Source: a virus. Taken from it: a stretch of DNA of 31,089 bases. The DNA lies in the IMG/VR virus record IMGVR_UViG_3300010300_000060, positions 1-31,089 of that record; one strand, written 5' to 3'. A model generated the notes under the pieces. That model searched no databases. It saw nothing but the letters and a program-made list of their open reading frames with translations, and was not told where the DNA came from. A program made the position numbers and the translations under genes. How positions within the stretch are numbered: the stretch's first letter is position 1; each line of letters begins with the position of its first letter. Below are positions 1 to 27,335 of the stretch, one piece after another.

Positions 1-3000
1 GTAGGTTTTACAACTGCTGGAACATCAGGTGTTCATAAGTTTGCAACTCAATCAAAAAATACTTTATCGGAAATAAGAGTATTAAATTCTGGCGAAAATT
101 ATGAAAATAGAAAGTTAAGAGTAAAACCATCAGGAATATCTACATTTTTCAATACAATTAATTTTAAAAATCATGGTTTTGAAGATGGTCAAGTAGTTGA
201 ATATTCAAATACAGTTAGTTTAGCATCAACAATCGCAAACAAAATTAATGGTATAAGCACTGATAATAAATATTACATTTTAAAAGTAGATGATGACTCT
301 TTTAAATTAGCAGACGCTGGAATAGGTGCAACATCTCCAGATAATTATCAAAGAAGAGTGCCTGTTGGATTAGGAACAACCGCTGGAGAAGGATATCATG
401 TTTTTAGTTTCCCAGAAATTAATTTAAAAGTAGAATATTCCTCAGTTGGTTTAGGATCAACACAATTTAAAGGAACGATTAATGCTACTCCAATTATAAG
501 GGGATCAATTCAAGATGTATATGCATATGAAACTGGATCTGATTATGGATCATCAATTTTAAATTATGAGAATAGCCCAACTATTTCTATAAAAAATGGT
601 AAGAATGCAAGTTTATTGCCAGTTATTGTTTCTGGAGAGATAAAATCAGTATCAATTTTAGGCGGAGGTAGTGAATATTATTCTATTCCCGATTTAGTTG
701 TAAATGGAACTGGATCTGGTGCTAGTTTAAAAGCTGTATTGACAAATAATAAAATTAGTGATGTAGTTATTATTAATCCAGGAACTGGATATTCTTCATC
801 TAATACAACTATTACTGTAAATTCATCAGGAAAAGGTGCCTTATTTGGTGTTGATGTTAGATCTTTAACTGTAAATAAAAATTTAAAATTTACAGATATA
901 AATGATAATTTTTATGAATCCAATGAATTAATTTTAAAAGCAGATAATGGTCTAAAATATTCAATAAGTGGATATACTGATTCATTAAAAGAACAGTTTT
1001 CTGATACTAATTCTAGTATTCATTCGCCAATTATTGGTTGGGCATATGATGGAAATCCAATTTATGGGTCTTTTGGATATAGTGATCCATTAGATAAAAC
1101 TAGTGATGTTAAATCAATTACTCCAGGATACACTAAAAGTTTAACTCATATCGAAAATAGACCATCAGGATTTGAATTAGGGTTTTTTATAGAAGATTAT
1201 AAATTTACAAATTCTGGTGACTTAGATGAATACAATGGAAGATTTTGTGTAACAGAGGAATTTCCTAATGGAACTTATGCGTATTTTGCAACTTCCATAG
1301 AAAATGCTGAAGGTGTTTTCGATGGCGTATTCCCATATTTTATTGGTGATAGATACAGATCTAAATTATTAATAGAAAATAAGACATTAGATCAAGATTT
1401 TGATTTTAATTCATCTAATTTGATAAGAAATACTTTCCCATATAAAGTTGGAGATGTTAATGCGGATTATGATTTTATTGTAGAATCTAATGAATTAATT
1501 AATCAAGAGTTGGTAGTAGAATCTGTTTCTTTTGGGCCTTTGGAAGATTTTGAAATTATAGAGTCTGGAATTAATTATTCGGTAAATGATGTATTAAATT
1601 TCGATGAAAGTGAAACTAGTGGGGGTGGATTAATAGTAAGAGTTTCAAAAATTAAAGGAAAAGAAATTGATAATTTACAAACTTCATATGTTACTTATGA
1701 AGATTCAATTTTTGTTCGGAGAAAGAATGAAATAGATGTTTTTGTTCTTCCTAGACATGAGTTTAATGATCTAGATTATGTGAATATTTCAGGATTTTCT
1801 ACTAATTTTTCTTATTTAAATGGAAATTATCAAATTGGTGTTACAACATATCTTTCCACAATTACCGTTGATATTCCAACGACAGTTGGCGTAATAACGG
1901 ACATTTACGTTTCTAATATTCCAAAAAATATTTCTATAGGAAGTAGCGCAGAAATTGGATCTGAAGTATTTAAAATTTTAAATATATTTGATAGAAATAA
2001 TATTATAAGAGTTCAAAGAAGTTCTGTAGGAACATCTCATACTGCAACATCAAGAATTAATTTTATACCAAATAAGTTTACTTTCACTAAAGTTGGTGAT
2101 GATTTCGATTCTAAAGTAAATGATGTAGTATATTTTAATCCAAAAGAATCTGTAGGTGTTGGAACTACTTCAGGATTAACAACATCGGCTACTTTTAATA
2201 TTGGCATTCAAACGAATAATACTATTTCTATTCCAACTCAATCAATATTTTTGCCGGGTCATCCATTTAAAACAAATCAGGGAATATTCTTCAACAAACC
2301 AGCTTCTGCAGCATCTATTTCAGTAGCAAATACATCAACAAGCACACCTTTTGATCTTCCTGGAGTTGGAACAACTATATTTGTAATTAAAAAATCTGCA
2401 GATCATATAGGTTTGGTAACTGAGGTTGGATTAACTACCAACACAAATGGATTATATTTTATTAATAATGCAGATGATAATTCTCAATATTATTTCGAAA
2501 GTGATTTTACGCAAATAACTGGAGATATAAAAAAGATAACTACAAAAGTTACTCTTTCTACAACTCACACTTTAAAAACAGATGATATAATTTCATTAAC
2601 TGTAAATCCTTCATTGAATGTTGGTATTGGAACATCAACCAAAGTCAATATTTTTAAAAACTTCAACAATACAATATCAGTTGGAAAAAATTATTTTAGA
2701 CTTTATGATATATCAACAGATAATAAAAATTATCGTTTTGAATCATCAGTAAAACATAATTTTAAAACAGGTGATAGAGTTATTTACAATTCAGCAATTT
2801 ATCCCACTAGCATTTTAAAGAAGGCTAATGGAGAAGAGATGGAAAACTCTTCTTTCTATGTAAAAGTAATTGATGATTATAATGTTATTCTTGTCGAATC
2901 ATATAGCGATTTATCTAAAAATTCTATTAGTGGAGAAAGTTCTTTAAATCTTTATTCACCTAGCGTTTCATCTCATGTTGGATCATATTATAGTATTTTA

Positions 3001-6000
3001 GCATTAGTAAATCCAAAAATAGAAGTAGTAAAGAACAACGATTTGGTATTTGACTTAACAGATTCTTCTTTAACTGGATATAATTTAAAAATATTCTATG
3101 ATAAAGATTTTAAAGATGAATTTATTTCAACAGGATCTACTTCAATATTCAGCGTTTCTGGAGTAGGAACTGCAGGAGTTTCTACAAACGCTTCACTGAC
3201 ATTAAATTATGGCGCAAATATTCCAGAAAAATTGTATTATGCTTTAGAGAAATCTGGAAGTATCAGCACAGTAGATAAGGAAGTTTCTAACTACTCTGAA
3301 ATATCTTTTGTTAATAGTCACTATAAAGGTTCTTATAAAGTAACTTCTGTAGGATCTACTACTTTTGACATATCTTTAACAAAAGATCCAGAAAGAGATT
3401 CTTATTCAAAATCTGAATGCGATAGTCTTAAATATGATACATCTTCTTTAAATGATACTGGTGGAGTATCAAAACTTGCAGTATTATCTTTTGGAGATAA
3501 TTATACAAAAATACCAGAATTTATTGATATAACTTCAACTAATGGTTCTGGCGCTTATGTTATTGCCAAATCTAATACAATTGGAAAAATTAATCAAGTT
3601 AGAATTATAAATGAGGGATTTGAATACTCTTCCGATAAAACATTGTCTCCAGAAACTTCAATATCTAATTCAATAGTACTTGAAGATTCTAATCAAATTT
3701 CATCTATTGATGTATTATCGGGAGGTCAAAATTATACATCTGCTCCAGATTTAATTATTATTGATCCAGAAACACGAGAAGTATTTTCTCAAGGAATATT
3801 AAAAGCAAATCTATCTGGAAATTCTATAGAATCTGTGGAGGTAGAACAATCTCCGAAAGGAATTCCATTTAGAGCAGATGTTAAGGCAGTAAACAATACA
3901 AATGGAATTGGCATACAAACATTTTCTGTTTCATCAGGAACAGTTATTACTTGCAAATTAATAACACCATCTGCAGGATTTGGTGCATTATCTCCTTTCT
4001 CTATTGGTGATAAAATTTTTGTAGAAGGATTTGAAAAAGAAGGCTCTGATGGTTCCGGATTCAATTCCGAAGATTATGGTTATGAATTCTTTACTGTTAC
4101 TAATTTTAGTTCTGGTGGTCCTGGAGTTGCAGCAGAATTAGAATACAATTTAACTGGATTTACAACAAATGCTGGAGTAGCAAAAACTGTTTCAAATAGT
4201 TATGCTTCTATAGTTAATTTTAATAAATATCCACAATTCTCAGCAAATTTGGAATTTTCCAAATTTATAATAAATGAAAAATTACAAGTTAAGGTTGAAT
4301 CTAACTTTATTGAAAGTGATCTTAAAGTAACAGAGATTGGCGATAATTTTATAAAAGTATCTGGATCATATTATTTAAAAACATCAGATAAAATAAGAGG
4401 AACAATATCTGGTTCTATTGCAACAATAAATGAAATAAATTCATATCAAGGTAATTTAATCATTGATTCCAAGTCAAGGAGAGATTATGGGTGGTCTGAT
4501 GATATTGGAAAATTAAATCAAGATACGCAAGTTATTGCAGATAATGATTACTATCAAAATCTTTCCTATTCAGTCAAAACAAAAAAAACATGGGATGATA
4601 TTTCTAGCCCAGTAAATAAAATTCTTCATACTGCTGGGATGAAGAATTTTGCAGATACAGAAATTATTAATAGTGTTGGTATAACGACAAAACCAGTATC
4701 AGACAGATTTGATAGTTATATCACAGAATTAGTTGATATATCAAGTGAAAATAGAGTTGATACTATTAATTATTTTGATTTAGTTAAAGATATTGAAATT
4801 TTTAGTTCTTCAAATAAGTCAAAATTTATAAAATTAAACAATAAAAAACTGACTGATTATATAAAATCAGTAACAAATAGAGTATTAAAAATTGACGATA
4901 TCAGTGAATTTTTCTCATCTTCAGAATCGGATTTAGATATTTTTACAAGGATAGAAGAAATACCTGCATCTAGAGATTATACTAGGTATTTGGTTCAAGT
5001 AACTAATAATGATTTCACTCAAGTTCAACTTGAAGAATTAGTTGTATTGAATGATGATGCAAGAAATACTTATTTACTAGAAAAAGCATCGATTTCAAAT
5101 ACTATTGGTTTTGGTATAACAACTTCAGATTATGTTAATACTGAAAATAGATTAGGCAATTTTGAAGTTATTGAAGAACTTGGAGCAGTATATCTCAAAT
5201 TTTCTCCAATTGACGAATATAATACAGACTATAAAGTTAAATTTATTTCCAATAAGTTTTCTAATTTTGCAGGAGTAGGAACAACATCTATAGGTTCAAT
5301 TGACATTACATCAACTTCTCATGCTGTAGGTTCTGGTTTAACACAGACATTAAGTCAAACTTCCGGTAAAACAGCAATTTATTCTCAAGTTTATTTGACA
5401 GACAATGTAACTTTAGAAATGAATTATGTTGAAATTTACGTTGACTATGATGGAACAGATGTAAATTTCACAGAACTTTTTATGGATAGTGATGAAGATA
5501 ATTTTAGTGCCAATCCAATAGGGTTATTTACATCTTATGTTGATGGTGGAGGAATTTTAAAATTAGATTGCGAAAATCTATCAAATAATTCTATTACTTT
5601 ACAATCAAGAAATATTGAATTTGCATCTGTAGGTATTGCATCGACATATAGATTTAAAGCTCTTAATCAACCAGATGAATCTGAAAGAACAATTTTATAT
5701 GAAGCAAAAGATATTTCTTCATCTTCTTCCGAAATAGAAATAAATTCTTTGAATATTAACTTATTCAGCTCACTAAAATCTACTATTAGAGTAGATGATG
5801 GTAGTTCTAGTGCTCTGCATCAAGTCATGTTTATTCATGACACTAACAATGTTTATACGGTTCAATATCCTTTTATTTCTATAGGAAGCACTACTGGAAT
5901 TGGAACTTTTGGTGGAGAAATAAGTGGTTCCGAAGCAAAACTTAAGTTTTATCCAGATTCTGCAGGAACATTTAATTTATTGAGTTTTAATGAGAAATTT

Positions 6001-9000
6001 TACTCATTTACTGATTTAAATTCATTAAATTCACCTTTACCTTTAAAATATGGTGATAATAATCAAATAGAAGATTCAAATTATGTAGTAACTCAATATT
6101 TGTCTAAAGGTAGTCAAGATGTTTTCAATTTCAAATTAAATTATGAAACTACTCCAATTTTCATGAAGGTTTTTGATCCAACAAATACTACTGTTTTAGA
6201 TCCAACTACTAGTGAATTTACAATACCAAATCATTTCTTTAATACTGGAGAAGAATTGACATATAGATATAAGTCTTCCTTTATAGGTGTTACTCCATCA
6301 TCTATTTTATCTGGCGGTGTTGGAATTGGATCAACAGTTTATGCAATAAAAACAAGCAATTCAACATTTAAGTTGGCAGCAAGTAAGTCAGATGCAGATT
6401 CTGGAACTTCTATTAGTTTTTCGTCAGTTGGATCTGGAAATGCTCATGAACTTGAAATGGTTAAGAAAAATGAAAAAGCTTTAATAGTAGTTGATAATTT
6501 AGTTCAAGCACCAATTTCATACGCATTATTAAGTTATACAATTGATAATGGAGGAAGTGACATTAATTCCGGTGTAACAACAATCGCATTGAGTGGAATA
6601 TCTTCTATTTTTCCAAAAGATATTTTAAAAATTGATGACGAATATGTTAAAGTTGAAAATGTTGGTTTTGGAACTTCAATTTCCGGTCCGATTTCTTTTG
6701 CAGGATCTTTTCCACTTGTTGAAGTTGAAAGAGGATTTGTTGGGTCTTCAGCAACGTCTCACAGTGATGGTAGTGTAGTTGATTTATATAGAGGTTCATT
6801 CAATATTGTAGGAGATGAAATTTGGTTTACAGAACCTCCCAGAGGGGTTCTAGAGGAACAAGCATTTATTGATGATGATAATCTTCCAGAACCAGTTTCT
6901 AGTTTTTCTGGAAGAGTTTTCTTGAAAAAAGATTATTCTAATAATCAAATATTCGATAATATTTCAGATAACTTTACTGGAATAGGTCAAACTTATGAAA
7001 TGACTGTTGGTGGAGCATCTACTAGTGGAATTGGATCAGATGGATCTAGATCTATTGTTTTTCTTAATGGCATTTTCCAATCACCAACAACAAATAATAA
7101 TCCAAATGGAAATTTTGAGTTGCAAAATGATTCAAATGCTGGAATTACTACAATTATATTCTCAGGTATTACTTCAGCAAATGGTTCAATTATCACTAGC
7201 GAAAGTGATGTAAATGTAAATGAAGTTCCTAGAGGAGGATTGATTGTTTCATTAGGATCTACTCCAGGTTTAGGATATGCTCCACTTGTAGGTGCTTCTG
7301 TTAGACCTATAATTGGTGCTGGTGGAGCAATATCTGATATTGTAGTTGGATTAGGAACGACTTCTGAAATTAAATCAATAAGTAATCCATATTCTATAAG
7401 CACTGCTTCTTATGACAATGTTACTGGTGTTTTAGAAGTTACTACAGTAAATCCACATAATTTTGGCGGATCAGATCTTCAAGTGTATTTGGAAAATTTA
7501 GAATTTTCTTGCGATTCTTCACATTTGGGAGTAACAACAACTATTTTCCCAGATGGAAGCAGCCCTTATGGAACAAAATTCCCAGTTATTGGAATAACAT
7601 CCGAAAATACTTTTAGTGTTAGAGTTGGAACTAGCACGATTACTCATAATTATGTTGGAATGGGATCCGCATATCGTTGGTATAATTTGAATTCTGGATC
7701 TGGATATAGAAATTCAGTTTCTATAGGAATAACTGATTTAGGAGAAACTCCTGGAAGTGGTGCTGTTATAACTGCTTCGGTAGGAGCTGGTGGAACTTTA
7801 TCATTCGCAGTTTCTTCTCCAGGATCTGGATATTCAACAGAAACTACCTTTATAGAAGTTCCTGCGCCATCATACGATAATTTAGAGGTTACTGGAGTAT
7901 CAAGAAGAGGTATTGGTTCTACTACTGATACTGGAATTGGATTATTGCTTAATGTAGAAGTTGGAGCATCTTCCACAACAGGTATTGGTTCAACATTATT
8001 CCAAATTTCTAATTTTAATATTACAAGATCTGGATATGGATTTAAGCCAGGAGATGTTATAACTCCAGTCGGATTAGTAACTGCTGCTGGTCTATCAGAA
8101 CCTATTGAACAGTTCCAATTGACAGTTTTGGATACATTTTCCGATCAATTCTTTGCATGGGATTTTGGGGAACTGGATTACATAGATTCTATTAAAAGTT
8201 TGCAAGATGGAACTAGAAAATTATTCCCATTATATTATCAAAATCAATTACTCAGCTTTGATATAGACTTATCAGATTCCGATTCTCAATTAATTGATGT
8301 TGATGCTCTTTTAATAATCTTCGTAAACGGAGTTTTACAAGAACCTGGATCTTCTTATGTGTTTAATGGCGGAACTTCTTTCACATTTACATCTGCACCA
8401 AAAGAAAATGATGATGTTAGAATTTATTTCTATAGAGGAAGTTCTAATGATAGTGGATTGATTAATATCAATGAGACTATTGAAATAGGAGATGAAGTTA
8501 GGATAATTAAAAATAATAATTTGTTGGGATTAACCACATCCCAAGACAATAGTAGAACAATTTCTAATATTGTATATTCTGATCAAATTGAAACAGTTCT
8601 ATATGGTGGTAGTGGCATTGATGATATCAATTTAAAACCTTTATCATGGTCTAAACAAAAAAGAGATAAAATAATTGATGGAGTTTATCAATATAAAACT
8701 AGAGACATATTAGAACCTCAAGTATATCCAACATCTAAAATAATAAAATCCATAACCTCTGGAGATACTACAATTTATGTTGATAGTGTAGACTTGTTTA
8801 ATTATGAAACACCTTCTTCTTTTGACGCATCAATAATTTCTGGTGATCCTGATCCTGTTTCTGCTGCAGTTACTGCAATTGTTTCTTCAAGTGGAACTAT
8901 TCAGTCTTTATCGATTACAAACCCTGGAAGTGGATATACTGGATCATCAATAAGTGCTAAAATTTCAGCTCCATCAAAAATTGGAGTTGGAATTGGAACA

Positions 9001-20989: not shown

Positions 20990-22087
20990 ATGCCTTTAAA
21001 TCCATTTTTTCAGCAAGGATCTCCTCCAGAACAATTTTTGATTCAGGATCTCATCAATGAGCATTTGAAAATTTATGGTGTAGATGTTTATTATTTGCCA
21101 AGAAAAATATTTCAGACTGACGATATTATTAGAGAAGTTCAGTCATCTAAGTTTGATGATAGTTTTCTTCTAGAGGCATATATTAATAATTATGAGGGAT
21201 ATGCTCCTGGTAGTGATATTATGTCAAAATTTGGAGTTACATTGAAAAATGAAGTTAGTTTAACAATATCACGAGAACGATATGAAGAATTTATTGCACC
21301 ATTTTTAGAAGGTATAACTTCAGGTATTCGTGAAGGTAGAATTACTGACTTTGATTTTGGAGATTTAATTTCAAGACCAAAAGAAGGTGATTTGATCTAT
21401 TTTCCTTTGGGAGAAAGGTTATTTGAAATTAAAAGAGTTGAACATGAAAAACCTTTTTATCAATTGGGAACAAATTATATCTACGAATTACAATGTGAAT
21501 TGTATGAATATGCAGACGAAATTATTGATACTACAATTGAAGAAATAGATAATACGATTGAAGATGAAGGATATATTACTACAATAAAAGTAGTTTCTCG
21601 CGCCCAAAATGCTTCTGGGGTTGCAGCAACTTCTACTGGATATATTAGAGAAATATTTTTAAATAATGATGGATATGGATATACCTCAACACCTTCAGTA
21701 GTTATATCTCCATCTTCATTTGGTCAAAATGCTTCTGCAGTTGCTATTACTACATCTATTGGCGGTGTTCAATCTATATCTGAAATAAGATTATTAAATG
21801 CTGGTAGTGGTTATACAGAACCTCCAACTATAAGTATTATTGGTGGTGGAGGAGTAGGAGCAGCTGCTACATGTTCGATTGAAAAAGTTAGTGCTGGTGT
21901 CAATGCAGTTAGTGTATCTGGTGGAACTGGATATTTGGCAATTCCATCTGTAACATTTAGTTCTCCTGGCGATCCAGATGCGTCTGCAGCTGAAGTATCA
22001 AATACAATTACTACAGATATTTCATTTACATTTGACTCTACAACATTAACGTTTGACTTAACTGCATACACTTTCGATTCTAATTAA
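20990..22087 (+). CDS. 14: Neck protein gp14 with repeat-bearing C-terminal extension
   Basis: T4-like gp14, partner of gp13 in the neck. Residues 1-~190 are the conserved core (MPLNPFFQQGSPPEQFLIQD, YGVDVYYLPRK, GDLIYFPLGERLFEIKRVEH, YELQCELYEYADE). At 365 residues it is longer than T4 gp14 (256). The extra part, about 197-340, contains two to three GxGY repeats (NDGYGYTSTPSVVI, NAGSGYTEPPTISI, SGGTGYLAIPSVTF), like those in the giant proteins and in the 227-residue protein downstream. It ends with a Thr/Phe/Asp-rich tail (TFDSTTLTFDLTAYTFD). The extension may project from the neck as a decoration; that is inference. No terminator is visible after the gene. Confidence 0.9.
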   Translation: MPLNPFFQQGSPPEQFLIQDLINEHLKIYGVDVYYLPRKIFQTDDIIREVQSSKFDDSFLLEAYINNYEGYAPGSDIMSKFGVTLKNEVSLTISRERYEEFIAPFLEGITSGIREGRITDFDFGDLISRPKEGDLIYFPLGERLFEIKRVEHEKPFYQLGTNYIYELQCELYEYADEIIDTTIEEIDNTIEDEGYITTIKVVSRAQNASGVAATSTGYIREIFLNNDGYGYTSTPSVVISPSSFGQNASAVAITTSIGGVQSISEIRLLNAGSGYTEPPTISIIGGGGVGAAATCSIEKVSAGVNAVSVSGGTGYLAIPSVTFSSPGDPDASAAEVSNTITTDISFTFDSTTLTFDLTAYTFDSN

Positions 22088-22095
22088 AATAAATA
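22088..22095 (+). promoter_or_regulatory. Probable late promoter AATAAATA
   Basis: AATAAATA, one base from the T4 late consensus TATAAATA and matching the NATAAATA form described for marine T4-like phages, lies directly after the gp14 stop in the 27-base gap and 19 bases before the ATG of the fibre gene. The position matches that of the two exact octamers, but in sequence this AT-rich a chance match is possible. Confidence 0.5.
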
Positions 22096-22114
22096 AAAGA
22101 AAATCTATTAAATA

Positions 22115-24382
22115 ATGGCAAAACTAGGGATATTAACTGGAACAACTCCAAATGATGGCTCAGGAGATACTCTACTTCAAGGTGCCATCAAAATTAATAG
22201 TAATTTTAATGAGATTTATTCAAATTTTGGAGATGGATCCAATCTTACATCTCTAGTTGGATATGCAACTGAAGGGTATGTTGATAATGCAGTAGCAGAT
22301 ATAACTGTTGGTATTGTAACTAGTGGAGATCTTGTAGGATTTGCTACTTTAGGAGATATTGCTGGAGTATCTACTTTTTCTGGAGATTATAATGATTTAA
22401 TAAACACACCGACAATACCATCAGATACTGGTGATTTAACAAATAATGCCGGATTTGTAACTACAGGAAATTTATCCAATTATGTTCAGGAAGAACAAAT
22501 AATTGGATTTGTTACAGATGGATATGTAACAAATGCCCTTGTAGGGTATGCAACTGAAGCGTATGTAATTTCTCAGGGTTATGCGTCTACCTCATACGTA
22601 GATAATCAGATAGAAGAATATTTCACTTCAAATATTGTAGGATATGCAACTGAAGGATATGTCGATAATGCTGTAGTTGGATTTATAACCTCAGGAGCAT
22701 TAACTGGATATGCAACTGAAGGTTATGTAACAAATGCTCTTGTAGGATATGCAACTGAAGGATATGTTGATAATGCTGTAGTTGGATTTATAACATCTGG
22801 TGGGTCAGCTATTGGTTTGACTTCATTAACTGGTGCTGCAGAAGGAACATATGGAAATTCACTCAATACCCCACAAATAACAATTGATTCTACAGGAAGA
22901 ATTACAGATATTCAACAAATTGGAATTTCTGGAGGTGGAGGTGGAGGTGGATTTGGTATAAATGTTTATGATAATGGAGGGTCTGTAGGATTTGCAACTG
23001 ATATTTTCTTTAGAAATAATCTTGATGCAGTTTCTGCAGGAAATACAATTTATATTGATGTAACTGGAGTTGCTACTGAGGCATATGTAACAAATGCTCT
23101 TGTAGGATATGCAACAGAGGGTTATGTTGATAATGCTGTAGTTGGATTTATAACCTCAGGAGCATTAACTGGATATGCAACTGAAGGTTATGTTGATAGT
23201 GCAGTAGTTGGATTTGTAACTTCGGGTGGAAGTGTTGAATATGCTATTGTATCTGGAGTAGCAACAGTAGCAGGGATAGCAACTTATACTTCGGAATGGA
23301 TTCTTGGAGCATCTGGAACTGATCATTATACTTTTACTGGACCAGGTTTAACAGGAGCAGAGAATGATCCGGATATTTACCTTGTTAGAGGTCAAAAGTA
23401 TAAATTTAACAATCAAAATAGTTTAGGAGCACATCCTCTTAGAATTCAAACAACTCCAAATGGATCTACAGGAACTCAGTATGATGATGGAGTCACGAAT
23501 AACAATGCGGCAGGTCAATCTACACTAGAGATAGATGTTCAATTTGACGCTCCGGATATTCTTTACTATCAATGCACAGTTCACCCAAACATGGGTGGCA
23601 AAATTTTCATCGATAATAGTGGAACATCTTTGTATGTTGATGGAAATGCTGGTATTGGAACTACGAATCCAATAGCAAAATTAGATGTTCGTGGAGATGT
23701 TTACATTTCTGGAGTTGTTACTGCATCATCATTCTCCGGAAATGCATCATCAGCAGATTATGCAACAAACTCGGGTGTTGCAACTTATGCAGGATCTTCT
23801 GGTATTGCTACATACGCAACAAATGCTGGAATAGCAACTTATTCTGACTCTTCTGGAATAGCAACTTATGCTTCGAGTTCCGGAATAGCAACTTATGCTT
23901 CGAGTTCCGGAATTTCTACAGAAGTATCTGGAGGAATTGCATCAGTAACTCAATTATCAGTTTCTGGTGTTTCTACATTTACTGGGATAGCAACCTTTAC
24001 TCAAATTGGAATATCCACAACAAATCCTAAAACAAATTTCCAGACAGAAAGATATACAATTAAAACTGGATTTGGAACATATACTGCCTCTGCAGGAATA
24101 TCTACGGACATTGATAGTTTTACAATTTCCTCAAATGATTTTAGAACATCTGAATATACTTTACATTTTGAATATAATTCAAATATACAATCTCAAAAAG
24201 TTCTCGTAATGCAAAACGGAACTACTGCATATGCTCAAGAATATGCAATTATGTATCAACCAAATCAGATTGTTTCAGTTGGTGCAACTATTTCTGGAGG
24301 AGACTTAAAATTACAAGTTACTCCAGAAACCGGTGTCAATGGATTGACAACTTACAGATTTGTAAGAGGGGCGTTAATCTAA
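22115..24382 (+). CDS. Tail-fibre-like protein with repeats and a cupredoxin (copper-binding) domain
   Basis: A 755-residue fibre-like protein. Residues 1-45 (GTTPNDGSGD ... INSNFNEIYSNFG) are a start common in phage fibres. Residues ~49-265 and ~317-375 are YATEGYVDNAVVGF-type repeats with a Gly-rich linker between. Residues ~390-503 form a cupredoxin-like domain: His440 in GAHPLRI, then Cys487, His490 and Met493 in CTVHPNMGG. The C-x2-H-x2-M spacing is that of amicyanin, so a complete type-1 copper ligand set appears to be present. Then come GIGTTNP...LDVRGDV, a run of nine-residue GIATYAxxS repeats (~550-600) and a C-terminal domain (~630-755). There is no signal peptide, so it is not a secreted electron carrier. 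It follows gp14 and is separated by one base from a subtilase gene. Receptor binding or adhesion is inferred; the purpose of copper binding is unknown. Confidence 0.75.
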   Translation: MAKLGILTGTTPNDGSGDTLLQGAIKINSNFNEIYSNFGDGSNLTSLVGYATEGYVDNAVADITVGIVTSGDLVGFATLGDIAGVSTFSGDYNDLINTPTIPSDTGDLTNNAGFVTTGNLSNYVQEEQIIGFVTDGYVTNALVGYATEAYVISQGYASTSYVDNQIEEYFTSNIVGYATEGYVDNAVVGFITSGALTGYATEGYVTNALVGYATEGYVDNAVVGFITSGGSAIGLTSLTGAAEGTYGNSLNTPQITIDSTGRITDIQQIGISGGGGGGGFGINVYDNGGSVGFATDIFFRNNLDAVSAGNTIYIDVTGVATEAYVTNALVGYATEGYVDNAVVGFITSGALTGYATEGYVDSAVVGFVTSGGSVEYAIVSGVATVAGIATYTSEWILGASGTDHYTFTGPGLTGAENDPDIYLVRGQKYKFNNQNSLGAHPLRIQTTPNGSTGTQYDDGVTNNNAAGQSTLEIDVQFDAPDILYYQCTVHPNMGGKIFIDNSGTSLYVDGNAGIGTTNPIAKLDVRGDVYISGVVTASSFSGNASSADYATNSGVATYAGSSGIATYATNAGIATYSDSSGIATYASSSGIATYASSSGISTEVSGGIASVTQLSVSGVSTFTGIATFTQIGISTTNPKTNFQTERYTIKTGFGTYTASAGISTDIDSFTISSNDFRTSEYTLHFEYNSNIQSQKVLVMQNGTTAYAQEYAIMYQPNQIVSVGATISGGDLKLQVTPETGVNGLTTYRFVRGALI
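22638..22800 (+). repeat. In-frame repeat block, copy 1
   Basis: Coding repeats with the protein pattern GYATEGYV-DNAVVGF-ITSG-ALTGYATEGYV. Parts are nearly identical at DNA level to 23080-23225, for example the stretch around CTGTAGTTGGATTTATAAC. It is a candidate site for recombination or slippage that changes fibre length. Confidence 0.7.
23080..23225 (+). repeat. In-frame repeat block, copy 2
   Basis: Second copy of the GYATEGYVDNAVVGF block, just upstream of the cupredoxin domain. It shares the same order of motifs (YVTNALVGYATEGYVDNAVV, then ITSGALTGYATEGYV) with the block starting near 22638, with only scattered base changes. Confidence 0.7.
23855..23908 (+). repeat. Perfect 27-bp tandem duplication
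   Basis: Two adjacent identical 27-base units (23855-23881 and 23882-23908), each beginning GGAATAGCAACTTATGC and ending TTCGAGTTCC, encode GIATYASSS twice (residues 581-598). The flanking units of the same nine-residue repeat have diverged, so this duplication looks recent. Confidence 0.95.
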
Positions 24383-24383
24383 A

Positions 24384-26285
24384 ATGAAAACAACTACTGA
24401 TTTTATACAAAGAGAACTTGTATCAGAACTTCCTGATGATTCTCCACAATCTTATGAGGTTTATATAAAAAATGCTTCAGATTGGCAAGAAATTCACGAT
24501 TATATTATAAATGAAAATGAAATAGATGGAATACCAAATAGAAGAATTTCTTGCATTTCTGAAATGAAGTGTTCGAAAAAAAGATCCGTTTATGAAATGT
24601 CAAAGAATGAGGCAGAGATATTAAAAACACATCCAAAAGTTCAATTTGTCACACCATCAACTTTATATAATCCTAAAGTATTGGAACAAAGAAAGATTGA
24701 TGAGCAATTTGACAGGCATTTAGATACCAATAGATATAAAGATGATATTACAAATAGAAGAACAACTGGAGATCCTGGATCAGTATTAAATTTTACTCAA
24801 TGGGGATTGTCTAGACATTCATACACTTCAAATAATTATGGATCAAGCACTTTAATTAATGAAGATATTAAGTATTCTCTGACAGGAGAGAATGTTGATG
24901 TAGTTATTATGGATAATGGTGTTCGATGGGATCACCCAGAGTTTTTACTACCAGAATATACATCAGTTCCTGTCGGAGTTGCAACAGAAACTGTAAGTAG
25001 AGTCAGAGATATTTTAATTCACGGTCAAGATGAATATGGTATTGATTGGGCATCCGAAGGTTTAGTTGCTCCTGGAACAGGATCACTAGCAAATTATACT
25101 AAAGCAGAAGCATTGCAGAGTGAAACATTTAATACAACTCCGCCAAATACTGTATGGCACGGAACTCATGTTGCAGGAACTGCTGCAGGAAATCAATTTG
25201 GATTTGCTTTCAAGTCAAATATATGGAGTATTGCATGTGTCGATAGATCAGACCTTGGATTTTCAGATCCATCAGATGGATTTGATTATATCAAAGTATG
25301 GCATAAAAACAAACCTATCAATCCAGCAACAGGTAGAAAAAATCCAACTATTGTAAACGGCAGTTGGGGCCTTAGACAATTTGTTTCTTACGGAGCTCCA
25401 TATCAAGTAAATTTTAGAGGATCATCATATTCTTCTGGAGACATAGAAGGATCTAATTCATTTTTACCTCCAGTTTATAATATTTCTACACTTAGTGGTT
25501 ATTATCAATTTACTTCAGTTCATGCAACATCTCAAGCAACAGCTGATGAAATATTTGATGATCCTGATTGTAAAGATATATCTTTTGTCTTTTCTGCAGG
25601 TAATTCGGGAAATCCTAGTGGTAAGCAAGATATTTTTAATGGAGTTGATTATAATAACCAATTTACTAGCGGAACTTTTTATTATGGAGGTCAAGTTGCC
25701 GAAACTAGAGGTGCAGTAGATGAATATTTTAATCGTGCTGGAACTCCATCTATAGCACATCAGGGTCAAAATGATGCTCCCATTTCAGTTGGTTCTCTTG
25801 ATAATGTTGTAGTTACAAGTGGAATAACTTCAGAAAGAAAAAGTAATTTTTCAAATACTGGGCCAGCAATTGATATTTGGTCAGCAGGATCGAATGTATT
25901 AAGTTCATATGGAACTGGATATGCTGATCCAAGAAATGGAACGTATTTGAACGGTTATATAAGTGGAACAAGTATGGCAGCACCTCAGGTTACTGGAGTT
26001 ATTGCATTATATTTGGAATCAAATCCATCAGCTACTAGAGTTGATTCTAGGAATTGGTTATTAAAACATGGATCAGTTTTATTAGAAAATGGTCCAGGAA
26101 ATCCTATTCTAGATACTTATAAAAATGTCAATCCAATTGGAGCAGGAACTTCAGTTTCTTACTGGTCAGATACTTATGGATTGAAAGGAGCTACAGCAAG
26201 AATTTTATATAATCCATTTGCAAATAATACTAGACCTTCAATTAGTGGAGTAAATATTTCTGGCATATCGTTTAAACAATCATAA
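24384..26285 (+). CDS. Subtilisin-like serine protease (peptidase S8)
   Basis: A 633-residue S8-family protease. Catalytic Asp177 is in VVIMDNGVRWDHPEF, His259 in VWHGTHVAGTAAG, oxyanion Asn407 in FVFSAGNSGNP and the nucleophile Ser530 in ISGTSMAAPQVTG, so all key residues are present. Residues ~15-110 may be an inhibitor-I9-like propeptide. There is no signal peptide or membrane segment, so the protein is made in the cytoplasm, probably for the virion. Residues ~575-633 are a short extension. An SD-like GAGGGG stretch precedes the ATG, one base after the fibre stop. Possible roles are processing of fibre or head proteins, or attack on the host surface; all are inference. The T4 prohead protease gp21 belongs to an unrelated family, so this is not its equivalent. 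Confidence 0.9.
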   Translation: MKTTTDFIQRELVSELPDDSPQSYEVYIKNASDWQEIHDYIINENEIDGIPNRRISCISEMKCSKKRSVYEMSKNEAEILKTHPKVQFVTPSTLYNPKVLEQRKIDEQFDRHLDTNRYKDDITNRRTTGDPGSVLNFTQWGLSRHSYTSNNYGSSTLINEDIKYSLTGENVDVVIMDNGVRWDHPEFLLPEYTSVPVGVATETVSRVRDILIHGQDEYGIDWASEGLVAPGTGSLANYTKAEALQSETFNTTPPNTVWHGTHVAGTAAGNQFGFAFKSNIWSIACVDRSDLGFSDPSDGFDYIKVWHKNKPINPATGRKNPTIVNGSWGLRQFVSYGAPYQVNFRGSSYSSGDIEGSNSFLPPVYNISTLSGYYQFTSVHATSQATADEIFDDPDCKDISFVFSAGNSGNPSGKQDIFNGVDYNNQFTSGTFYYGGQVAETRGAVDEYFNRAGTPSIAHQGQNDAPISVGSLDNVVVTSGITSERKSNFSNTGPAIDIWSAGSNVLSSYGTGYADPRNGTYLNGYISGTSMAAPQVTGVIALYLESNPSATRVDSRNWLLKHGSVLLENGPGNPILDTYKNVNPIGAGTSVSYWSDTYGLKGATARILYNPFANNTRPSISGVNISGISFKQS

Positions 26286-26288
26286 ATA
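26281..26288 (+). promoter_or_regulatory. Probable late promoter CATAAATA
   Basis: CATAAATA overlaps the subtilase stop codon and lies 15 bases before the next ATG (26304). It matches the NATAAATA late-promoter form, and the sequence after it (TCTAAA) is the same as after the exact octamer at 18832. The spacing to the start is short, which would leave a short 5' leader. Confidence 0.55.
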
Positions 26289-26303
26289 TCTAAAAAATCT
26301 CAA

Positions 26304-26645
26304 ATGGCAGATAAAAATTTTGGCGTAAAAGATATAAATTTGATAGGTGCTTCAGGAACTCCAACTATTGAAAGTCCTAATAATTTAAATCTAAATGCAA
26401 CAACTGTCGCTATAAGTACTGATGTTAGTATTGGTGGAGAAGTTGTTTCGAATGTAATTGTTGGAACTGGATATTCTATAGGGATTGGAACTACATCAGC
26501 AACAACTTTACTAGATGTAAGAGGAGATGTAAGAGCCGGAATAGACACATCGAATGGACTGGTTTTAACATCTCCAAATGGAACTACTTTCAGAATAATA
26601 GTTGATAATTCTGGAGTTCTTTCAACAACATCAATAACTATTTAA
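26304..26645 (+). CDS. Small virion structural protein with GIGTT...LDVRGDV motif
   Basis: A 113-residue protein beginning MADKNFGVKDINLIGASG, then TPTIESPNNLNLNATTVAIS. It shares the GIGTTSATTLLDVRGDV motif with the cupredoxin fibre (GIGTTNPIAKLDVRGDV), which suggests either shared ancestry of a fibre segment or a common assembly partner. The C-terminus (SPNGTTFRIIVDNSGVLSTT) looks like the short end domain of small cyanophage structural proteins. Mostly beta-strand; no membrane segment. Function unknown; a decoration or fibre-adaptor role is inferred from motif and place. Confidence 0.7.
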   Translation: MADKNFGVKDINLIGASGTPTIESPNNLNLNATTVAISTDVSIGGEVVSNVIVGTGYSIGIGTTSATTLLDVRGDVRAGIDTSNGLVLTSPNGTTFRIIVDNSGVLSTTSITI

Positions 26646-26651
26646 TTAAAG

Positions 26652-27335
26652 ATGAGAACAGTTCCAGGATCGGGTGCAGTTGTAACCCCAAATTTTAATA
26701 TTGATTATGGTGTAGAATCATTTACTATTGTAAATGGTGGAACTGGATACGCAGCAACAGATCCTCCACAAATAAACATTTTAAATACACAACCACCAAC
26801 TATTTCCGGATCATTTTTTCCAGTAATTGTTGGTGGTGGAATTACAAATATTACAATTTTAGAACCAGGTAGAGGATATTTTCCTCTTGCAGTTGGTGTT
26901 ACTGCTGTTGGAATTGCATCTCTTGGAAGTGACCAAAACGTTGTTGCTGTACACATAATAAATCCTGGTATTGGATATACAGAAAACCCTTCAGTAACAA
27001 TTTCTGCAGCATCTACTACTGGTATTGGAACTTTCGTATTTAATGAAATTGTTACTGGTCAAACATCAGGAACAATAGCAAGAGTTAAAGATTTTAGAAC
27101 AGAAGCATCAAGTATTCCTGGAGTTCTTTCTTCTACAAACTTAAGAGTTGCAATAAATAGTGGTAAATTTATACCTGGAGAGATTATAGTAGGATCAATT
27201 TCTTCAGCAAGATACGCTGTAGAAGAATATGATGATAGTAGTCACGCAGATACCTACGATAGAAATGAAGAAATAGAATTGGAGGCTGATTCTATACTTG
27301 ATTTTACAGAATCCAATCCTTTTGGAGATTACTAA
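26652..27335 (+). CDS. Virion structural protein with GxGY repeats
   Basis: A 227-residue protein. Residues ~22-125 contain three GxGY-type repeats (NGGTGYAATDPPQI, EPGRGYFPL, NPGIGYTENPSVTI), the same type as in the giant protein and the gp14 extension. Residues ~130-195 hold a module (NEIVTGQTSGTIARVKDF ... GEIIVGSISSARYAV) that resembles segments in the DUF4815-type protein. The acidic end (EEIELEADSILDF, NPFGDY) is typical of a small conserved cyanophage protein next to gp15. Its TAA overlaps the ATG of gp15 by one base and a GGAG for gp15 lies just before, so the two are probably translated together. Function unknown. Confidence 0.75.
   Translation: MRTVPGSGAVVTPNFNIDYGVESFTIVNGGTGYAATDPPQINILNTQPPTISGSFFPVIVGGGITNITILEPGRGYFPLAVGVTAVGIASLGSDQNVVAVHIINPGIGYTENPSVTISAASTTGIGTFVFNEIVTGQTSGTIARVKDFRTEASSIPGVLSSTNLRVAINSGKFIPGEIIVGSISSARYAVEEYDDSSHADTYDRNEEIELEADSILDFTESNPFGDY

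Follow-up and report, generated by a model that had tools for sequence, protein, structure and literature searches.

What does a subtilisin-like protease do among the tail genes of a virus, and does it travel with the particle? The question is raised by a 633-aa peptidase S8 (subtilase) gene at positions 24384-26285 (+ strand) of IMG/VR record IMGVR_UViG_3300010300_000060, a marine virus of cyanophage type, whose analysed stretch of 31,089 nt is called the window here. A sequence-only reading had described the gene as an apparently active subtilase lying one base from a fibre gene, and had proposed that the enzyme could be carried on the virion and mature fibres, degrade host surface proteins at adsorption, or act inside the cell. 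We took up these claims with profile searches, structure predictions, and comparison with relatives in phage and metagenomic records.

The gene has an ATG start and no internal stop. Pfam PF00082 (Peptidase_S8) matched residues 168-561 (24885-26066, + strand) over profile positions 1-271 of 288, with an E-value of 5.2e-27 and 95.3 bits, far over the cut-off of 21.8. All four residues of the S8 catalytic set could be read from the translation, each within its motif: D177 in VIMDNG, H259 in HGTHVAGT, N407 in SAGNSG, and S530 in GTSMAAP. We evaluated their conservation in 103 aligned sequences, which are the window protein and 102 ORFs from IMG/VR loci and 15 phage records, with an identical copy (L002) and near-duplicates included. 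Since the Asp was kept in 102 of these sequences, the His in 103, the Asn in 103, and the Ser in 102, the catalytic residues are not there by chance. The full set was present in 101 of the 103, reaching down to about 25-30% identity; the exceptions were S-CAM1, where Glu replaces the Asp, and L108, which has no Ser in the ORF read. PF00082 was matched at E <= 1 by all 59 members of alignment A2. An AlphaFold2 model of the protease, built from a 59-sequence alignment, had a mean pLDDT of 85.7 and a pTM of 0.79, and its residues 116-612 aligned with aqualysin I over 272 of 276 residues (Z 33.4, 2.2 A) and, at Z 31.9, with proteinase K (2prk); the structural matches barely cover residues before about 115. 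The profile search and the structure prediction, both of which had been suggested as checks, agree with the initial assignment, and membership in peptidase S8 of the proteinase K/aqualysin I type is confirmed at the level of the predicted fold.

The window protein has the Asp/His/Asn/Ser motifs, the S8 profile, the predicted fold, and a probable N-terminal propeptide in common with the proteinase K/aqualysin I group. Unlike that group, it has no signal peptide, its gene lies in a phage tail-structural cluster, and its phage branch carries insertions between the motifs, including an NKPINPxTGxxNPT-like stretch in most members. The highest 15-residue Kyte-Doolittle mean within the first 45 aa was -0.26, and this lack of a hydrophobic stretch upholds the earlier remark that a secretion signal is missing. 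By a simple threshold, a hydrophobic N-terminus was likewise absent in 99 of 100 family members. Sub-threshold matches to the Pfam entry 2C_adapt were also seen in 22 of the 59 A2 members; in the window protein the match falls at aa 306-319 (WHKNKPINPATGRK), where there is no cysteine.

Ahead of the catalytic domain, a probable propeptide with I9-like topology occupies aa 20-95 (24441-24668, + strand). AlphaFold2 placed residues 22-91 in a separate beta-alpha-beta-beta-alpha-beta unit (block pLDDT 66-92), which is the topology of subtilisin propeptides. Comparisons at the sequence level gave PF05922 at E <= 1 in three of the 59 A2 members (best 0.056, sub-threshold) and in three of 12 whole records, each time on the protease N-terminus and below the cut-off, with the other nine records free of any match. 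An hhalign comparison with the BPN' subtilisin propeptide reached a probability of 14.6% (E 0.0018, 22 columns aligned), and in a profile search of the PDB the domain matched no propeptide. Because this sequence support for I9 is weak, we call the domain I9-like and not I9. Its predicted topology suggests that the protein is made as a zymogen. In S-T4 (L033 7007-8923), the annotated protease CDS begins at 7157, about 50 aa short of the ORF that opens at 7007. That ORF starts 1 base past the preceding gene, and a large part of the propeptide region therefore seems to be missing from the annotation.

Relatives of the window protease were found in cyanophage-type records. A tblastn search of 50,697 phage records identified 54 that hold a relative, and these are Synechococcus, Prochlorococcus, or 'Cyanophage' entries together with four 'Marine virus' entries. 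At least 80% of the protease was covered in 29 of the 54, and identity was below 60% in all. Their annotations range from hypothetical protein (often) through subtilisin-like serine protease and peptidase S8 family domain to baseplate wedge subunit and virion structural protein, and the P-SSM2 and S-SSM7 entries carry the note 'T4-GC 292, contains PF00082'. The window protein is a member of this group of cyanophage proteins (PHROG 9158/T4-GC 292; phrog_9158 E 3.8e-124), which PHROGs lists as of unknown function and for which we found no assigned role. One scan of IMG/VR contributed 25 loci to our set; the other, which found relatives in at least 562 of 600 stretches, supplied the best 80 loci. 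The 102 ORFs are what remained of 117 matches after removal of loci listed by hand as duplicate, truncated, or near-identical, and the set still holds near-identical loci (e.g., L083/L085/L086, L110/L112, and L095/L097) besides L002, which is identical to the window protein. A scan of genome contigs with a single narrow pattern returned eight relatives in 11 stretches, all on MAG or bin contigs, and is uninformative on a bacterial or prophage origin. Our literature search, whose coverage falls short of most subscription journals, found no paper describing a protease of the window type, GenBank annotations aside, and none for S-TIM54, S-SCSM2R, or Sf-CH8. The phage 'sheath subtilisin' named in a figure legend of PMC9004378, in the part of that paper available to us, is a different thing.

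The most regular feature of these loci is the spacing between the protease and the gene before it. In the window, the TAA stop of the fibre gene occupies 24380-24382 and the protease ATG begins at 24384, which leaves the single base that had been noticed at the outset, and such tight spacing recurs family-wide. Measured from the end of the nearest same-strand ORF of at least 80 aa to the protease ORF's first ATG, the upstream gap was -4 to +9 nt in 95 of the 97 measurable cases among the 102 ORFs. The downstream gap, taken by a slightly different rule (to where the nearest ORF with 60 aa or more starts), fell in that range in four of 96 cases and had a median of 21.5 nt. Pairing with the preceding, mostly fibre-like gene is thus systematic across the family. 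A purine-rich AGAGGGG lies inside the 3' end of the window fibre gene and would fit coupled translation of fibre and protease.

The upstream gene itself (22115-24382, + strand) encodes a 755-aa gp9-like fibre or connector, which matched phrog_677, 'baseplate wedge tail fiber protein connector', with an E-value of 1.1e-43. Its C-terminal beta domain (aa 653-755; 24071-24379, + strand) was modelled as part of a 140-aa stretch with a mean pLDDT of 84.6. The predicted domain matched T4 gp9 (1qex_A) with Z 13.1 and 1.9 A over 104 residues at 14% identity, in a tie with an Acinetobacter phage tailspike domain (Z 12.4), and the fold alone cannot separate the two. Predicted viral structures that matched the domain belong to fibre-type proteins of S-T4, S-SCSM1, P-SSM2, and S-TIM5, and tblastn placed matches to fibre aa about 656-751 right before the protease gene in many relatives. 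The likeness to T4 gp9, which joins the baseplate wedge to the long tail fibre, thus consists of the predicted C-terminal fold and the PHROG name; the window fibre differs in its length (755 aa against 288), in its repeats and cupredoxin-like domain, and in the protease gene that follows. On the strength of the gp9/tailspike fold match and the PHROGs connector match, the usual partner of the protease in the window's branch appears to be a gp9-like, spike-type protein. Among 100 upstream ORFs, which differ widely in length, the C-terminus was of the window's gp9-like type in 49, of a second type (DPxPGSGVIAEVITTG...) in 38, and of neither type in 13, a group that includes at least five ORFs that look spurious (L083, L084, L085, L086, and L117). 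Two points count against a gp9-like partner: 51 of the 100 upstream ORFs end otherwise, and a tailspike domain fits the fold about as well as gp9 does. Between the two main types, hhalign detected no relation (probability 0.2%); the window type alone was folded, and a common fold is possible.

On the other side of the protease lies a 113-aa gene (26304-26645, + strand), which tblastn identified as a stand-alone form of the N-terminal domain that opens the downstream gene in many relatives. Its first 38-78 aa were matched directly after the protease in, for example, P-SSM2, S-SCSM1, S-T4, and S-SSM7. In nearly all of 15 annotated phage regions, the protease had neighbours labelled as tail, fibre, baseplate, or structural genes.

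The sequence-only reading had placed the protease between gp14 and gp15, and it was suggested that this interval be compared across genomes. The flanking genes are as described: gp14, gp15, and gp16 are supported by Pfam and PHROGs, and gp13 by PHROGs. In the ORF at 20990-22087 (+ strand), gp14 (neck protein/head closure Hc2; PF11649 E 6.4e-28, phrog_460) is represented by its N-terminal part, without the usual C-terminus; the ORF matches residues 1-325 of gp14 in AG-345-L05, a single-cell virus in which the protein is intact (476 aa). The gp14 C-terminal part is found in a 227-aa ORF at 26652-27335 (+ strand), which matches phrog_460 positions 229-376 and the intact gp14 in L132. The last 94 aa of this ORF matched in 242 phage records, and among the 15 matches listed the named ones were neck protein/head closure and one virion structural protein. 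As the C-terminus of gp14 lies in the downstream ORF and AG-345-L05 has gp14 intact, a cassette of about 4.6 kb (22088-26651) evidently splits gp14 in the window. In AG-345-L05 the intact gp14 lies between gp13 and gp15, with the fibre-protease-cupredoxin set on another contig, and in S-SCSM1 gp14 adjoins gp15, with the protease about 155 kb further in the record, or about 69 kb the opposite way round the circle. The location is thus not conserved, and we rejected the gp14-gp15 position as a meaningful context for the protease; the cassette interrupts gp14 rather than sitting beside it. A chimeric assembly is an unlikely source of the split, as three other IMG/VR contigs (L002, L003, and L023) each overlap part of the arrangement.

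Whether the enzyme belongs to the particle can be judged best from S-SCSM1. In its record (MK867354.2), the protease homologue SSCSM1_228, the fibre gene upstream (SSCSM1_227), and the gene downstream (SSCSM1_229) are all tagged 'virion protein'. SSCSM1_228 has 1411 aa and is 52% identical to the window protein in its protease part, and the tag covers the whole protein with the detected part unspecified. According to the available part of PMC9602691, mass spectrometry of CsCl-purified S-SCSM1 particles identified 45 virion proteins, compared with 48 genes tagged in MK867354.2 by our hand count. The tagged set includes ORF91, ORF213, and ORF214, which that part of the paper lists among the detected proteins and regards as probably non-structural, and the tag is missing from several structural genes (e.g., SSCSM1_17, 209, 211, 215, and 245). 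Since it covers the former and leaves out the latter, the tag seems to mark detection. The idea of a virion-carried subtilase therefore finds support in one relative, through a tag given by the depositors of S-SCSM1. For S-CREM1, 14 virion proteins were detected, four of them structural, and in the material available to us the main text of that paper mentions neither 'protease' nor 'peptidase' (PMC9964418); with so few proteins, this absence carries no weight.

A further suggestion was that the protease and a cupredoxin fibre act together. The domain in question spans about aa 395-501 of the window fibre (23297-23617, + strand; AHPLRI...YYQCTVHPNMGG) and carries His, Cys, His, and Met in the order of a putative type-1 copper site. 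We take the domain to be cupredoxin-like and these four residues to be its putative copper ligands; a Pfam search of the fibre gave no match. Among 15 whole cyanophage records, hand-picked from the 54 protease carriers, 11 had a cupredoxin-like domain. It lies inside the protease polypeptide in five (S-H9-1, ACG-2014j, ACG-2014e, S-TIM54, and S-CAM1, the last weak with E 0.0014) and within 0.5 kb downstream of the protease in four (P-SSM2, Sf-CH8, S-SSM7, and S-SCSM2R); it is 4.8 kb away in S-SCSM1 and far off in S-H38. No match was found in the whole records of S-WAM2, S-T4, S-CREM1, and S-RSM4. Of the 14 cupredoxin matches, three are distant from the protease: one in P-SSM2 (25.5 kb), the one in S-H38, and one in ACG-2014e, which is weak. 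A strict motif applied to the 102 mostly partial loci found five domains fused to the protease and 16 more within 1.5 kb. The partnership thus recurs (nine of 15 records fused or within 0.5 kb), and the recurrent fusion is suggestive of joint action, but the domain occurs in 352 phage records and is common in cyanophage structural genes, for which reason we downgraded the link. These records include small-genome phages, among them the podoviruses P-GSP1 and P-SCSP2, and cyanomyoviruses outside the 54 protease-bearing records, such as ACG-2014d. Intact putative copper ligands in this domain are widespread in cyanophage baseplate and fibre proteins.

Other fusions were found in the protease itself. 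The S-SCSM1 subtilase is joined to Laminin_G_3 (Pfam, E 1.2e-25). The 2140-aa protein of S-TIM54 (L037 6995-13417) has a propeptide-like N-terminus, an esterase-like alpha/beta hydrolase stretch, a subtilase, and Ig domains and ends in a cupredoxin-like domain, and L083 joins the subtilase to about 1000 aa that resemble fibre repeats by eye and in which Pfam names no domain. We infer that the fused subtilases resemble particle adhesins more than soluble enzymes.

Our preferred explanation, to which we give an even chance, is that the window gene encodes a particle-borne zymogen of the proteinase K type, made and probably assembled with a gp9-like protein, that trims host surface protein at adsorption. 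Translation of the protease would be coupled to that of the preceding gp9-like baseplate/fibre gene, as the spacing implies, and the enzyme would probably bind the gp9-like protein during assembly. The propeptide-like N-terminal domain, judging from its predicted topology, may keep the protease latent until autoprocessing. At the baseplate periphery, it would then act as a protein-cutting counterpart of the tailspike depolymerases and trim host outer-surface proteins during adsorption. Tailspike and tail-fibre depolymerases cut polysaccharide and usually are the spike itself. The proposed logic is alike, a particle-borne hydrolase on a fibre that would strip the host surface, whereas the window enzyme is a peptidase and a separate, coupled protein. 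In the literature that we searched, no member of the family has a reported proteolytic activity.

When fibre maturation, host-surface degradation, and intracellular action were compared, surface degradation ranked as the most likely. The tight coupling, however, would be just as natural for an assembly or maturation factor. Such a protease would process the gp9-like fibre or other tail fibres, would be made beside its substrate, and need not stay in the particle. The near-constant spacing and adjacency to the upstream fibre gene and the recurrence of its C-terminal domains speak for this reading, as does a precedent in T4-like phages, where the chaperone or adhesin of a fibre can be encoded directly after the fibre gene (gp37-gp38). 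Although it is the chief rival, we consider it rather unlikely: the two upstream C-terminal types, with no detectable relation, and the very different lengths of the upstream proteins leave no obvious shared cleavage site, and the fusions to lectin, Ig, and fibre-like stretches look like a component of the particle and not a free processing enzyme.

These adhesion-domain fusions also weigh against an intracellular protease, injected or synthesised in the cell, that would attack host proteins or defences. The missing signal peptide would suit such a role, and some S8 peptidases are intracellular. Its tail, fibre, baseplate, or structural neighbours in nearly all of the 15 annotated regions, a start codon placed where the upstream gene ends, and the virion tag beside fibre proteins in S-SCSM1 nonetheless make it improbable. 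More improbable still is a scaffold, catalytically dead or with irrelevant activity, in which the fibre tip would use the subtilase fold for binding. S-CAM1, with its Glu for the catalytic Asp and its cupredoxin-like insert, and L108, with no Ser at that position in the ORF read, would fit a scaffold, but 101 of the 103 sequences retain the complete catalytic set. We rejected the idea that the subtilase takes the place of the prohead protease, as S-SCSM1 encodes both a prohead protease (SSCSM1_40) and the subtilase. The prohead protease of T4, gp21, is serine-type like the window enzyme but belongs to a family other than S8.

Particle-borne trimming of the host surface can be extended to a bolder proposal, which we put forward tentatively and with more doubt than confidence. 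The gp9-like connector, the subtilisin zymogen, and the cupredoxin protein would form a mobile cassette that arms the baseplate of marine cyanomyoviruses with a protease able to activate itself, the proteolytic match of a tailspike depolymerase. This enzyme would stay latent while still in the cell that produces it, become active in seawater, clear picocyanobacterial surface protein, and help to set host range. Surface-attacking enzymes carried on tailed phage particles are usually active on glycan or peptidoglycan. If abundant ocean viruses do couple a conserved and apparently active proteinase K-type enzyme to a connector of the baseplate, protein surface layers would be a barrier that phages digest. 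The surface-trimming explanation also supplies a reading for proteins whose database entries are largely hypothetical or of unknown function.

Several individual loci deserve mention for their structure. In S-CAM1 (L029 5987-8242), the cupredoxin-like insert lies between the Asp and His motifs of the protease with Glu at the catalytic Asp, and its Cys-His-Met piece precedes the remainder, as if the domain were permuted. The L108 ORF (4992-6671) stops before the Ser motif while the tblastn match runs on to 6919, which points to a frameshift or truncation. On the single contig of L090, two subtilase ORFs of the window family lie near each other (1110-3761 and 4956-6659), and the catalytic domain of one contains a long insertion.
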